DNA of 61,135 nt from an uncultured Clostridia bacterium (GTDB lineage Bacteria > Bacillota > Clostridia > Christensenellales > Borkfalkiaceae), in contig CALVUC010000006.1 of the NCBI GenBank assembly GCA_944363395.1, forward strand, positions 1-61,135, written 5' to 3'. A program made the position numbers and the translations under genes. The notes beneath the pieces are model-generated. The model was given only the letters and a program-made list of their open reading frames with translations, was not told where the DNA came from and searched no databases. Below, piece after piece: positions 32,662-47,167 of this stretch (the stretch's first letter is position 1; the number at the start of each line of letters is the position of its first letter).

Positions 32662-33474
32662 TCATTTAAGTTTTTGCTGTGCGAGGAACACCCGCATGAC
32701 AAAGGAGTGGGGCAGGAGCTTTGTGAGGGCGTGCGTCGCCTTGGCGACAAAGCCGGGGACGACGTAGTCCCTCTTTTTTTTCATGGCGGCGAACGTCTTA
32801 CGGGCGATGAAAGCGGGGTCGTACATACAGTCGAAGTGCGTGATGACGCCCTCCTTGTTGGCGCGTCCGAAAAAGTCCGTTTTGGTCCAGTAGGGGCAGA
32901 CTGCCAGGACGCGCACCTTTTTGGAGCGCAGTTCCCTGCCGACCGCGCGCGAGAGCGCCAGAACGTATGCCTTGGTCGCGGCGTATTCCGCGCCGTAGGG
33001 TACGGGCTGGAAGGCTGCGACGCTCGCGATGTTCACGATGATGCTCCCCGCCGAGCAATAGGGGAGAACGGCGCGCATGAGAAGGGTCAGGGCGCGGCAG
33101 TTGAGGTCGAGCATCCCCGCGGTATCCTCTTCGGCGATGGCTTCGAATCGCTCGAATTTTCCGTAGCCGCCCGCATTGACGAGGATGCGCACGTCGGGCT
33201 GTTCTTCCGCGAGGAGCGCCGCGATCGCAGAGAGGCTCTCCTGCTTTGTAAGGTCATAGGGGAGCGCGCGCACGGGGACGGGAAGCTCCTCTTTGAGCGC
33301 GCGGAGCTTGTCGCCGCTGCGGGCGATGACCCAGAGTTCGTCGGGGTCGTACCGCGCGGGGATGCCCTCCGCGATGCGTTTTCCGATGCCCGACGATGCG
33401 CCCGTCACGATGGCGATGCGTTTTCCGATGCCCGACGATGCGCCCGTCACGATGGCGATGCGTTTTTGTGCCAT
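32662..33474 (-). CDS. short-chain dehydrogenase/reductase with a duplicated nucleotide-binding loop
   Basis: A 270-residue classical SDR. The Ser-Tyr-Lys triad is seen as NIASVAAF and YAATK, and LVNAGGYG matches the NAG motif. The N-terminus is abnormal: the 14 residues KRIAIVTGASSGIG occur twice in direct succession before the protein resumes with KRIAEG. The TGxxxGIG dinucleotide loop and its beta strand are thus doubled by an exact 42-bp duplication. The start ATG follows GGAGG. The substrate is unknown; DltE/YqjQ-type oxidoreductases are possible relatives. Confidence 0.9.
   Translation of the reverse strand: MAQKRIAIVTGASSGIGKRIAIVTGASSGIGKRIAEGIPARYDPDELWVIARSGDKLRALKEELPVPVRALPYDLTKQESLSAIAALLAEEQPDVRILVNAGGYGKFERFEAIAEEDTAGMLDLNCRALTLLMRAVLPYCSAGSIIVNIASVAAFQPVPYGAEYAATKAYVLALSRAVGRELRSKKVRVLAVCPYWTKTDFFGRANKEGVITHFDCMYDPAFIARKTFAAMKKKRDYVVPGFVAKATHALTKLLPHSFVMRVFLAQQKLK
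33371..33454. repeat. exact 42-bp tandem duplication inside the SDR gene
   Basis: Bases 33371-33412 are repeated without a mismatch at 33413-33454, and 12 further bases (33455-33466) match the start of the unit. The unit is a multiple of three, so the frame is kept and 14 residues are added. Confidence 0.98.
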
Positions 33475-38199: not shown

Positions 38200-38209
38200 C
38201 ATCATTGGC

Positions 38210-38238
38210 GGGAGGATCGCACGATCCTTCCGTTTTTT
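38210..38238 (+). terminator. metK terminator
   Basis: A 10-bp stem (GGGAGGATCG/CGATCCTTCC, one G-U pair) with a tight loop, followed by G and T7. Confidence 0.88.
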
Positions 38239-38283: not shown

Positions 38284-38312
38284 TTGACAACGCCGCGCGG
38301 ACATAGTACAAT
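38284..38312 (+). promoter_or_regulatory. pfkA-ppx-ppk promoter
   Basis: TTGACA 38284-38289, 17-bp spacer, TACAAT 38307-38312. Five nt later an ATG opens a short ORF that spans the pfkA ribosome site. Confidence 0.87.
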
Positions 38313-38317
38313 AGAAT

Positions 38318-38353
38318 ATGGAAGAAATGGCAAATACGGGAGGAATGTTATGA
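38318..38353 (+). other. 11-codon leaderless upstream ORF before pfkA
   Basis: ATG 38318, 5 nt after the -10 box, opens a frame encoding MEEMANTGGML that stops at TGA 38351-38353 and overlaps the pfkA ATG as ATGA. The pfkA ribosome site GGGAGG lies inside it. Ribosomes that start on the 5'-terminal AUG would deliver themselves to the pfkA start, giving coupled translation. It may also be a fortuitous AUG. Confidence 0.45.
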
Positions 38354-39423
38354 AATTCGGGATCCTGACGAGCGGCGGCGACTGCGCGGGGCTCAACGCG
38401 GTCATCCGCGCCATCGGACTGTATCTTGCGAACAATGTGAAGAATGCCGAGATCGTCGGCATCCCCGAGGGGTACGCGGGGCTCATCCGCGGCGAGAGTT
38501 ATCCGCTCACGAAGGCGGATCTTGAAGGGCTCCTCCCCGTCGGCGGCACCATTCTGAAGACCCGCCGCACCCCCTTCAAGCGCATGACCGTATTGGAGGA
38601 AGGCGGCACCCGTCTTTCCAGGATGGTCGCGAACTATAAAAAGATGGGGCTGGACTGCCTGTTCACGCTGGGCGGCGCGGGGACGCACAAGACGGCGGCG
38701 CTACTCTCGATGGAGGGCTGCAACGTCATCGGCGTTCCCAAGACCATCGACAACGACATCTTCGGTACCGACGTCACGTTCGGGTTCCGCACGGCGGTGG
38801 AGGTCGTCACGGACGCCTTTGACCGCATCGAAACGACGACGCGCAGCCATTCCCGCATCATGCTCGTCGAGGTCATGGGCAACAAGGCGGGCTGGCTCAC
38901 GCTGCATTCCGGCATTGCCGCGGGCGTGCAGATGATCCTCATTCCCGAGATCCCCTTCAATCTCGACGTCGTGTGCGATACGCTCAACGCGCGCATCGCG
39001 GCGGGGGAGACGTACACGATGATCGCCGTCGCCGAGGGCGCGGTGCTCGACGCCGAGGCGCGTTTCAAAAAGGAGGAGCGCGCGTTTGCCCGTCCCGCGT
39101 TCGGCGAGACGACCGTCACCCGCCATCTTGCCGAGGTCATCGGCGAGCGCACGGGGCAGGAGACCCGCTATTCCGTGCTCGGCTATCTGCAGCGCGGCGG
39201 CACGCCCTGCGCCTACGACAGGCTCCTCTGCACCCGTCTGGGCGGGTATGCGGCAAAGCTCGCCGTCGAAGGCAGGTTCGGCGTGACGGCGGCGGTCGTC
39301 GGCAACGAGATCACCTTCAACGCCCTGCCCGACATCGCGGGCAAGTACAAGTTCGTCGATCCCATGGGCGGCGAAGTCGCCTGTGCGCGCGGCATCGGCA
39401 TCTCCTTCGGGGACAGAAGGTAA
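38350..39423 (+). CDS. pfkA: 6-phosphofructokinase, non-canonical active-site type
   Basis: A 357-residue PFK (PFK-A superfamily) acting on fructose 6-phosphate in glycolysis. It begins KFGILTSGGDCAGLNAVIR. The phosphoryl-donor loop reads GGAGTHKT (Ala110, Gly111) where ATP enzymes have GGDGS and PPi enzymes GGDD. The catalytic segment is PKTIDND (Lys131), and a Lys there is typical of PPi-dependent or mixed PFKs. VEVMGNKAGWLTLHSG and LIPEIPF are standard. Donor specificity is therefore uncertain. ATG 38350 follows GGGAGG. It leads an operon with ppx and ppk. Confidence 0.9.
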   Translation: MKFGILTSGGDCAGLNAVIRAIGLYLANNVKNAEIVGIPEGYAGLIRGESYPLTKADLEGLLPVGGTILKTRRTPFKRMTVLEEGGTRLSRMVANYKKMGLDCLFTLGGAGTHKTAALLSMEGCNVIGVPKTIDNDIFGTDVTFGFRTAVEVVTDAFDRIETTTRSHSRIMLVEVMGNKAGWLTLHSGIAAGVQMILIPEIPFNLDVVCDTLNARIAAGETYTMIAVAEGAVLDAEARFKKEERAFARPAFGETTVTRHLAEVIGERTGQETRYSVLGYLQRGGTPCAYDRLLCTRLGGYAAKLAVEGRFGVTAAVVGNEITFNALPDIAGKYKFVDPMGGEVACARGIGISFGDRR

Positions 39424-39436
39424 GGGGGGACAAGTC

Positions 39437-40771
39437 ATGAAATATTCCGTCATCGACGTCAGTTCGAGCAGCATTTCCATGATCGTCGCCGAAAACGGCG
39501 GCGTGAACGAGGTCGTCAGCCGCGAGCGCGCGTCGCTCAGCCTCATCCATTATCTCGAGGGGGACAGTCTCTCCCGCCGCGGCATCGTTAAACTCGCGGC
39601 GCTGCTCAATCATATGAAGGCGCTCGCCGCCGCGCAGGGCGCGGAACGCTGTTACGTCATCTCCACCGCGGCGCTGCGTCACGTTGCCAACAGCGGCGAG
39701 ATCGCCGCTTTCGTGCGCGAGACGACGGGGCTTGCGATCAACTTCATCGACGAGCCGACCGAAGCCTACTGCGACTATATCGCCAATCTCTCCTACCGCA
39801 CCTGCGAGCGCCCCGTCCTCATCGACCTGGGCGGCAAGAGCATCGAAGTATGCGACCTTGCCAAGACGGAGAAGGCGGAGATGTTCGGCATGGAGTTCGG
39901 GCTCACCGACCTCACGCGCAAGTTCGTCTCCAATATTTATCCCGATGAAGAGGAAGTCAAAGCCATCCGCAAATTCCTGAAAAAGAAGTTCGACGGGGCG
40001 GGGCTTCCCGAAAAGGGGACGTTTGAAACGGCGGTCCTCGTCGGCGCGGCGTCCACCGCCCTCTACGACATCTATGCCGATTTTGCCAAAGTGTCGGGCG
40101 CGGAGGAAAAGACCGTCGACGTCAAGAAATACAAAAAGCTCGTCAAGCGCCTTCTGGAGGGCGCGGACCGCTCCCGCCTCATCCTCAAGAATGCGCCCGA
40201 GAAGATGTATCTCATCTGCGCGGCGGCGGTCACGCTCAAAGTGCTCTTCAAACGTTTCGGCATCCGCACCGTCATCGTCAGCGACAGCGGCGTCAAGGAA
40301 GGCTATCTGCGCCTCGTGCTGGAGGGAAGGGAGAAGGGCGAATATCTTGCGCTCACGCCCCCCGCACCGTCGGAGGAGAGCGGGGCAGGCTCCGCAGAAG
40401 AGCCCGTCGAAGTCCCCGTGGACGTCTCCGCGGTGCCGGCATCGGAAGCCGAACAAGAAAAGCCCGCGTCCAAAAAGCGGGGACGTCCTGCGGGGAGCGC
40501 AAACAAAAAGCCCGCCGTACAGCCGTCTCCCGCCGTCGCGGACAAAGAGAAGTCCGCGCCCGCGCGCAGGGGACGCCCGAAGAAGGAGGCTGCCGGACAG
40601 CCGTCCGAACAGGAGAAGCCCGCGCCCAAAAAGCGGGGACGTCCTGCGGGGAGCGCGAACAAAAAGCCCGCCGTACAGCCGTCTCCCGCCGCCGCGGACA
40701 AAGAGGACCCCGCGCCCGCGCGGCAGGGGCAGGCAAAGCGGCGCGGCAGACCCAAAAAGACCACCGAATGA
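39437..40771 (+). CDS. Ppx/GppA-like phosphatase with AT-hook tail
   Basis: A 444-residue protein. Residues 1-310 or so are an ASKHA-fold Ppx/GppA domain (exopolyphosphatase/pppGpp phosphatase). STAALRHVANS and VLIDLGGKSIEV match the family, but the first phosphate loop reads DVSSSSIS instead of DxGSNxxR, so activity may be altered. From about residue 320 the chain becomes low-complexity, rich in Lys, Pro, Ala and Glu. It has four GRP cores: KKRGRP (R348-P351), RRGRPKK (377-383), KKRGRP (400-403) and RRGRPKK at the very end (435-441). These are AT-hook sequences and suggest DNA or polyphosphate binding. It lies between pfkA and ppk. Confidence 0.85.
   Translation: MKYSVIDVSSSSISMIVAENGGVNEVVSRERASLSLIHYLEGDSLSRRGIVKLAALLNHMKALAAAQGAERCYVISTAALRHVANSGEIAAFVRETTGLAINFIDEPTEAYCDYIANLSYRTCERPVLIDLGGKSIEVCDLAKTEKAEMFGMEFGLTDLTRKFVSNIYPDEEEVKAIRKFLKKKFDGAGLPEKGTFETAVLVGAASTALYDIYADFAKVSGAEEKTVDVKKYKKLVKRLLEGADRSRLILKNAPEKMYLICAAAVTLKVLFKRFGIRTVIVSDSGVKEGYLRLVLEGREKGEYLALTPPAPSEESGAGSAEEPVEVPVDVSAVPASEAEQEKPASKKRGRPAGSANKKPAVQPSPAVADKEKSAPARRGRPKKEAAGQPSEQEKPAPKKRGRPAGSANKKPAVQPSPAAADKEDPAPARQGQAKRRGRPKKTTE
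40451..40706. repeat. direct repeat coding for the AT-hook tail
   Basis: A segment of about 95 bp starting GAACAAGAAAAGCCCGCG at 40451 recurs at 40607 with a few substitutions, giving a 156-bp (52-codon) period. Each period carries one KKRGRP and one RRGRP hook. The near identity points to recent duplication. Confidence 0.9.
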
Positions 40772-42898: not shown

Positions 42899-42902
42899 AA
42901 CG

Positions 42903-42930
42903 GCGGAGCCCGCGGGCTCCGCTTTTTATT
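42903..42930 (+). terminator. ppk terminator
   Basis: GCGGAGCCC/GGGCTCCGC stem with a 2-nt centre that opens to a small loop, followed by TTTTTATTT. Confidence 0.9.
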
Positions 42931-46937: not shown

Positions 46938-46991
46938 GACGCCGGGTCCACGGTGAAATGTGTCCGCGACCGCCGGGGGCTGTTCGACTGA
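46938..46991 (+). repeat. 54-bp duplicate of the HMA gene 3' end
   Basis: Matches 46756-46809 with a single T-to-C change, 182 bp downstream, including the stop codon. The end of this copy merges into the first unit of the 22-bp array. Confidence 0.95.
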
Positions 46992-47167
46992 TTGGCGCGG
47001 GCTGTTCGGCTGATTGGCGCGGGCTGTTCGGCTGATTAGCGCGGGCTGTTTGACTGATTAGCGCGGGCTGTTTGACTGATTAGCGCGGGCTGTTTGACTG
47101 ATTAGCGCGGGCTGTTCGGCTGATTGGCGCGGGCTGTTCGGCTGATTGGCGCGGGCTGTTCGGCTGA
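46977..47167 (+). repeat. 22-bp tandem repeat array (8 units plus a 15-bp partial)
   Basis: Eight contiguous 22-bp units of the form GGGCTGTTCGGCTGATTGGCGC start at 46977, 46999, 47021, 47043, 47065, 47087, 47109 and 47131. A 15-bp partial unit at 47153 runs up to the leader of the next gene. Three central units are identical to one another (TTTGACTGATTAGCGC form). Differences are limited to C/T and A/G changes at three positions. The first 15 bp of the unit equal the last 15 bp of the HMA gene, including its TGA. Confidence 0.97.

Follow-up and report, generated by a model that had tools for sequence, protein, structure and literature searches.

A Ppx/GppA-family protein with an AT-hook tail, a candidate DNA tether, encoded in a pfk-ppx-ppk gene cluster of uncultured Clostridia

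Introduction

In Pseudomonas aeruginosa, AlgP is associated with polyphosphate granules, is needed for their even spacing and carries a DNA-binding KPAA tail; in the accessible text of that report, the authors note that it "has been unclear" why and how such granules come to be linked to the nucleoid, and speculate that AlgP tethers the granules to the chromosome, as PhaF is thought to do for PHA granules. For the exopolyphosphatase of Deinococcus radiodurans (DrPPX), the excerpted text of the mutational analysis gives ~5-12% of kcat for D7A, E114A, D136A and E143A, and ~35-42% for N11A, S12A and H14A (~41-42% for N11A and H14A) (PMC11234463). Three phosphoryl-donor classes of phosphofructokinase (PFK) are defined, in the excerpt at hand, by the consensus motifs GGDGSxxG (ATP), GGDGSxxI (ADP) and GG(D/E)D(S/T) (PPi) (PMC11609450). 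In published titles and abstract openings, searched with coverage of few subscription papers, neither an AT-hook exopolyphosphatase nor a pfk-ppx-ppk operon was described. Here we present a gene cluster of uncultured Clostridia in which a Ppx/GppA-family protein with an AT-hook tail is encoded between a PFK and polyphosphate kinase 1 (PPK1).

Results

The ppx gene and its neighbours

The window, a stretch of 61,135 nucleotides from an uncultured Clostridia bacterium (contig CALVUC010000006.1), encodes a protein that an earlier note had described as Ppx/GppA-like, with four AT-hook cores in a repeated Lys/Pro/Ala-rich tail behind the catalytic domain and a gene lying ahead of ppk (Table 1). This description held: PF02541 matched residues 16-291 (E 4.1e-31; 108.9 bits against a cut-off of 27), the domain ended at residue 294, the translation contained four RGRP cores with the basic flanks that define an AT-hook, in the contexts that the note had given, and PPK1 was encoded directly downstream. 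The NCBIfam exopolyphosphatase model TIGR03706 scored 136.1 bits, far below its cut-off of 307, and Pfam AT_hook scored 17.1 bits, just below a cut-off of 17.4 that orthologues in G015 and G071 exceeded. An AlphaFold2 model built from six sequences had a mean pLDDT of 56 and a pTM of 0.46, with modest confidence in the domain, and was used for fold and disorder only; its top Foldseek match was 1t6c, the Ppx/GppA protein of Aquifex aeolicus (E 3.2e-16). A Pfam CRC_subunit (Rsc7/Swp82) match within the Ppx domain (E 0.0015, sub-cut-off) was taken as chance.

None of 20,000 shuffles of the window tail contained four RGR[PK] motifs, and KPAA repeats were absent from the translation. The two 118-nt copies within the tail, which begin at 40449 and 40605, are a recent in-frame duplication, and core 4 may derive from core 2. 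Two further tandem repeats lay elsewhere in the window, a 22-bp unit at 46977-47167 (8.7 copies, 95% matches) and a perfect 42-bp unit at 33371-33466 (2.3 copies); Rfam gave no matches in the window at gathering scores.

The third member of the cluster, a PFK gene absent from the earlier note, ends 13 nt ahead of ppx, and 30 nt separate ppx from the start of ppk; because of this close spacing, the three genes are likely to form one operon. The scan of the window returned five promoter-like sites against 1.2 expected and eight terminator-like sites against 6.0 expected in shuffles, so that the hairpins around the cluster carry little weight by themselves.

Table 1. Coordinates of the pfk-ppx-ppk cluster and of features within ppx (window positions).
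Feature	Position	Strand	Evidence
Terminator-like hairpin ahead of pfk-ppx-ppk cluster	38207..38234	+	Consensus scan
Sigma-70-type promoter-like site TTGACA-17-TACAAT upstream of pfk	38284..38312	+	11/12 matches
Cassette-type 6-phosphofructokinase, 357 aa; donor-site GGAGTHKT + PKTIDND	38350..39423	+	PF00365, E 1.3e-93
Ppx/GppA-family protein with AT-hook tail, 444 aa	39437..40771	+	ORF call, PF02541 match
Catalytic domain, residues 1-294; D7, R81, E109, D130, E137 kept; loop 1 DVSSSSIS, loop 2 DLGGKSIE	39437..40318	+	Alignments, Foldseek
Basic Pro/Ala/Lys-rich tail, 150 residues (295-444), predicted disordered, net charge +10	40319..40768	+	pLDDT <50 at residues 297-444
Internal duplication of a 118-nt segment, copies 156 nt apart (93% identity)	40449..40722	+	Copies at 40449 and 40605
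AT-hook core 1 (KKRGRPAG), residues 348-351	40478..40489	+	Translation
AT-hook core 2 (RRGRPKK), residues 378-381	40568..40579	+	Translation
AT-hook core 3 (KKRGRPAG), residues 400-403; copy of core 1	40634..40645	+	Translation, duplication
AT-hook core 4 (KRRGRPKK), residues 436-439	40742..40753	+	Translation
Polyphosphate kinase 1, 698 aa	40802..42898	+	TIGR03705, 700.8 bits (cut-off 465.85)
Terminator-like hairpin directly 3' of ppk	42902..42923	+	9-pair stem, then T run

Distribution within the genus

Among the 103 genomes of the genus, ppx (E 1e-20 or better), PPK1 (E 1e-20 or better) and the PFK of the cluster (cassette-type; at least 49% identity, E 2.9e-110 or better) each occurred in 27, and the carriers were the identical 27 genomes, with the three genes adjacent in all of them; the linkage of ppx to ppk thus recurred in every carrier. 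In one of these, G078, ppx was broken across two contig ends, one half being flanked by pfk and the second by ppk. A second PFK, 37-41% identical, was present in 92/103 genomes (26 of the 27 cluster carriers and 66 others), while ten genomes had no PFK of any kind at E 1e-30. The five named relatives are metagenome-assembled Clostridia genomes. Duplicate loci L033, L034, L035, L036 and L037 (of L038, L005, L040, L041 and L004) were excluded, as was L053 from all counts and L049 from the tail counts (G078 gene split by contig ends).

AT-hook cores were found in 20 of the 26 unsplit genus orthologues, and these 20 make up the lineage of the window protein, all members of which bear hooks. An isolated expansion of the tail, with no homologues sharing it, which the earlier note had named as the outcome that would undo its proposal, is thereby ruled out. 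Two to four cores were present in 19 of the 20 hook tails and one in L005; one of the three cores of L006 reads RSRP, and L048 has RGRK-type cores only. The six remaining orthologues (L012, L013, L014, L050, L051 and L052), which form one lineage, have short, net-negative, hook-less tails, are 39-41% identical to the window protein and lie in the same pfk-ppx-ppk cluster. Since hook-less versions occur within the same cluster both in the genus and beyond it, hooks are dispensable for some versions. The genus, then, holds a second, distant version of the cluster at these six loci.

Conservation of the hook cores

The spacers of the genus tails aligned poorly, and both length and spacers varied freely. 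RGRP accounted for 42 of the cores in these tails and was spelled in 21 synonymous ways; five RGRK and one RSRP came in addition. Shuffling reached the observed hook count in 0-2 of 20,000 trials for 19 of the 20 tails (168/20000 for L005), and tail composition is therefore insufficient to produce the hooks. Because the search pattern itself demands Arg, a Fisher test of Arg against Lys within the cores is circular, and [KR]G[KR] tripeptides were counted instead: the 26 hook tails (genus and beyond) contained 62 RGR, one KGR and one KGK (n = 64), against 92 Arg and 251 Lys among the basic residues outside the hooks. Together, the 21 spellings and the predominance of RGR indicate that neither charge nor recent copying alone is sufficient to account for the RGRP cores. 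In L011, L042, L046, L047, L097 and L098, the tails contained species-specific tandem units with one hook each, which suggests that selection has repeatedly favoured the presence of several hooks.

One alternative would make the tail near-neutral, low-complexity sequence that arose through slippage at repeats, the genome being GC-rich. It accords with the recent duplication in the window gene, with the free variation of tail length and spacers, and with the GC content of hook-bearing loci (0.52-0.65), which exceeds that of hook-less loci outside the genus (0.45-0.53); base composition at hook-bearing loci may thus favour Arg, Gly and Pro codons, although the hook-less genus members, at 0.59-0.60, run counter to this. 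Slippage, however, would have to yield hooks in 20/20 tails of the lineage, in 21 RGRP spellings and in numbers that shuffles rarely reproduce, and to do so in a genome in which neither the AT-hook DNA pattern nor Pfam AT_hook revealed another credible AT-hook gene. We consider this alternative very improbable, and such a drift-based account is already hard to hold.

The genome-wide search behind the last point returned 22 sites for the AT-hook DNA pattern against 12 for a reversed control pattern, along with three Pfam AT_hook matches. Outside the window ppx, RGRP fell inside the longest open frame at L062 and L073 only, and both were rejected by eye as AT-hook genes, the first because its frame is not protein-like in composition and the second because the site precedes a hydrolase-like start. 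As a control across the genus, Pfam AT_hook was run at E up to 0.3 on 40 of the 103 genomes, 20 with the cluster (15 of the hook type) and 20 without it. Of 43 weak matches, 18, from nine genomes, fell within cassette ppx and 25 elsewhere (13 in cluster genomes and 12 in cluster-less ones), 17 of these 25 in open frames of <130 residues; both control genomes with an above-cut-off match had that match in ppx. Six of the 15 hook-type genomes gave no match in ppx, which marks the 13-position AT_hook model as weak.

A second alternative holds that the tail is a polyphosphate-binding polycation that keeps the enzyme on its substrate or on the granule surface, with the hooks mattering as charge only. 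All 20 genus hook tails are net positive (+1 to +16), and in other genera the same cluster can encode a tail that contains Lys but lacks hooks; both observations fit such a polycation. The charges are small, however, because the tails are also rich in Asp and Glu, and charge alone would not predict RGR in 62 of 64 tripeptides when Lys dominates the basic residues outside the hooks. We regard the polycation reading as improbable, if less so than slippage. Stretches dense in Asp, Glu, Ser and Lys, which would also suit a polyphosphate-binding tail, were observed in L008, L044 and L011 (best 20-residue windows 0.90, 0.85 and 0.80, respectively); we take these to be of the PASK type, as in polyphosphate-binding proteins.

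Catalytic residues of the Ppx domain

The acidic residues D7, E109, D130 and E137 of the window protein align with D7, E114, D136 and E143 of DrPPX, and R81 aligns with the conserved R86; all five were invariant among 17 aligned cassette Ppx. The phosphate loops differ. The earlier note had called the first loop degenerate, and it does read D7-V-S-S-S-S-I-S14: the equivalents of G9, N11 and H14 are Ser, that of G140 in loop 2 is Lys, and the canonical D-x-G-[ST]-N-[ST] is replaced by D-V-S-S-S-S. In all 43 cassette copies, Gly is replaced by Ser, positions 9 and 14 are both Ser, and the loop follows D-x-S-[SA]-[STN]-[SG]-x-S as against the canonical DxGSN[ST]xR, with the loop Asn kept in a single copy (L048). 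Likewise, every one of the 42 cassette copies that extend to the REG motif has KEG there. Since the loop 1 change is common to the 43 copies, hooked or not, it is a property of the clade and is not tied to the tail.

From the degenerate loop, the earlier note drew a hint of a sensor role, and the Ppx-like domain might on that account be a non-enzymatic sensor of polyphosphate or nucleotides that regulates transcription or PPK through a DNA-binding tail. The clade-wide loop and KEG changes would suit such a sensor, as would the two additional Ppx/GppA proteins of the same genome, whose loops are canonical. Against it, D7, R81, E109, D130 and E137 are kept, and mutation of the equivalent acidic residues nearly abolishes the activity of DrPPX, whereas the N11A, S12A and H14A enzymes retain over a third of theirs. 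AT-hooks, moreover, give little sequence specificity, which counts against a regulatory sensor. The hint therefore found no support, the catalytic residues being kept and the loop change being clade-wide, and we judge a sensor unlikely. With the essential acidic residues kept and auxiliary phosphate-loop residues changed, the domain is likely to have retained activity, which may be altered. Mycobacterium tuberculosis Rv1026, in which, according to the excerpted report, the residues are conserved and exopolyphosphatase activity is undetectable (PMC3411833), serves as a warning against reading activity from conserved residues.

Distribution beyond the genus and phylogeny

In a sample of 396 genomes of the order, 26 had profile matches (E 1e-25 or better), of which 18 were of the cassette type (E 1e-100 or better), two of these in the genus of the window. 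The 16 cassette copies outside the genus comprised six with hook tails (L095, L096, L097, L098, L100 and L101), eight with Lys-containing, hook-less tails (L094, L099, L102-L106 and L109), one with hardly any tail (L108) and one truncated by a contig end (L107). PFK and PPK1 were both present in 17 of the 18 genomes; the exception, G355, which encodes the nearly tail-less L108 (G355:C2), had no matching PFK or PPK1. Among the eight weaker order matches, the gene was found in seven (not at L113), with a canonical loop and without RGR[PK], and the PFK motif was absent from the flanks of all eight.

In the phylum sample, 36 of 398 genomes matched, the window's own genome included (E 1e-30 or better), and 29 of 37 places outside that genome were read. 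The gene was found at 28 of these 29 other-order loci (not at L127), in each case with a canonical loop and in a frame of 305-349 or 511-521 residues. RGR[PK] occurred in 0/28 of these copies and the PFK motif within the flanks of 0/29 loci; a PPK1 motif lay near 16 of the 29. Within the genomes sampled, the hook tail and the pfk-ppx-ppk triad therefore look confined to the order.

A tree of 42 cassette-type and six canonical Ppx domains, in which the contig-cut L107 was scored as hook-less, placed all cassette-type domains on one side of a 100/100 branch. Four changes were needed to account for the 26 hook bearers, and well-supported branches force three of these; all but one of the hook bearers fell, together with two hook-less copies, in one fork (95/90). 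Members of families f1, f19 and f32 interleave, which, along with the two distant versions in one genus, suggests that the cluster has been transferred or replaced. Several forks of the tree are poorly supported, and its long branches call for caution.

The cassette phosphofructokinase

GGAGT and PKTIDND were present in all 27 genus cassette PFK, the other PFK of the window's genome having GGDGS and PGTIDND. The donor site GGAGTHKT departs from the ATP signature GGDGSxxG and, as GGAG in 27/27 genus copies, from the GG[DE]D of the PPi alpha-phosphate site. PKTIDxD is PPi-like, yet the excerpted text reports it from an ATP enzyme too (PMC12203962), and it is accordingly not decisive alone. A further excerpted source associates PPi-PFK with extra residues inserted around 220-230 and a larger side chain at position 108, and ATP-PFK with Gly at 104 (PMC10339645). 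The cassette PFK combines an ATP-like Gly104 with a Thr, larger than Gly, aligned to Gly108 of Escherichia coli, the PPi-type Lys of PKTIDND and, following AEG, an insertion of 23 residues, a mixture of sequence features that fits none of the three published classes.

Cassette-like PFK occurred in 79/396 order genomes (E 1e-70) and PPK1 in 83/396 (E 1e-60), with both in 71, PFK alone in eight and PPK1 alone in 12 (Fisher 5e-56, uncorrected for kinship). The two genes lay within 3 kb of each other in 31 of the 71 genomes, 15 of which lacked cassette ppx, and farther apart, mostly on different contigs, in the other 40. The 29 order PFK loci that were read (L147-L175) comprised 23 GGAGT and six GGNGT within the donor motif GG[AN]GTHK[TS], L152 having GGAGTHRT. 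The PPi-PFK of Thermotoga maritima accepts polyphosphate. Together, the donor-site mismatch and the co-occurrence with PPK1 suggest a polyphosphate-linked PFK, and that polyphosphate or PPi feeds the enzyme is a natural guess.

Discussion

The reading that we favour, with some confidence, is that a competent polyphosphatase is held by its AT-hook tail at the nucleoid, beside polyphosphate granules. Because the hooks are kept while the tail around them changes, and because ppk and pfk are neighbours, tethering is the probable function of the tail, which is unlikely to be accidental; the earlier note, which proposed that the tail could tether the protein to polyphosphate granules near the nucleoid or place polyphosphate turnover on AT-rich islands, is supported in that a tether is the most likely use of a conserved hook tail as judged from sequence comparison. 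AlgP provides a precedent, and the window protein would combine such a tether with a polyphosphate enzyme in a single polypeptide. Counting against this reading are the hook-less versions of the cluster, the possible influence of base composition, the sub-cut-off AT_hook and TIGR03706 scores, the weak AT_hook matches outside ppx, some of them in cluster-less genomes, and the nearly tail-less Ppx of G355. AT-hooks are minor-groove binders of AT-rich DNA, and the disordered, multivalent tail would hold Ppx on AT-rich nucleoid DNA and so place it next to polyphosphate granules forming there, where polyphosphate synthesised by PPK1 could be trimmed locally, assuming that the domain hydrolyses it. 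Lysines of the tail may additionally contact polyphosphate. By binding DNA in the cell, the tail would tether granules or limit turnover to the nucleoid.

A wider scheme, which we offer tentatively and hold to be doubtful as a whole, is a polyphosphate-powered glycolysis operon: PPK1 would bank ATP, the cassette PFK, as a fourth donor class, would spend polyphosphate on fructose 6-phosphate, and the nucleoid-anchored AT-hook Ppx would determine where the store lies and how long its chains are. This Ppx would then be, as far as the literature searched shows, the first polyphosphatase whose own sequence directs it to DNA. A polyphosphate enzyme with its own candidate DNA tether makes the link between granule and nucleoid testable with one protein and a tail deletion, and if the cassette PFK is driven by polyphosphate or PPi, it would connect glycolysis with energy storage in these uncultured Clostridia.

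Comparison with known systems

The window Ppx has its fold and the catalytic Asp, Arg and Glu residues in common with the A. aeolicus enzyme (1t6c, 2j4r) and the N-domain of D. radiodurans PPX (8jgu). The 28 Ppx copies found in other orders, in contrast, lack RGR[PK], and where single-domain Ppx/GppA phosphatases have loop 1 GSN[ST]xR and REG, the cassette proteins have S[SA][STN][SG]xS and KEG. The cassette PFK shares PF00365 and TIDND with the PFK-A family, but its GG[AN]GTHK[TS], PKTIDND and 23-residue insertion are unlike the excerpted ATP, ADP and PPi consensus (PMC11609450). Like AT-hook proteins (Pfam AT_hook), the window tail has several copies per protein of an RGRP core with basic flanks; unlike in those proteins, the hooks are fused to a polyphosphate enzyme. 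AlgP and PhaF resemble the window Ppx in their Lys/Pro/Ala-rich C-terminal tails, which, in the accessible text of the reports, bind DNA and are linked to polyphosphate and PHA granules, respectively. AlgP is presented there as histone H1-like, with repeats of KPAA, and that text does not describe it as degrading polyphosphate, whereas in the window RGRP hooks are fused to Ppx itself.
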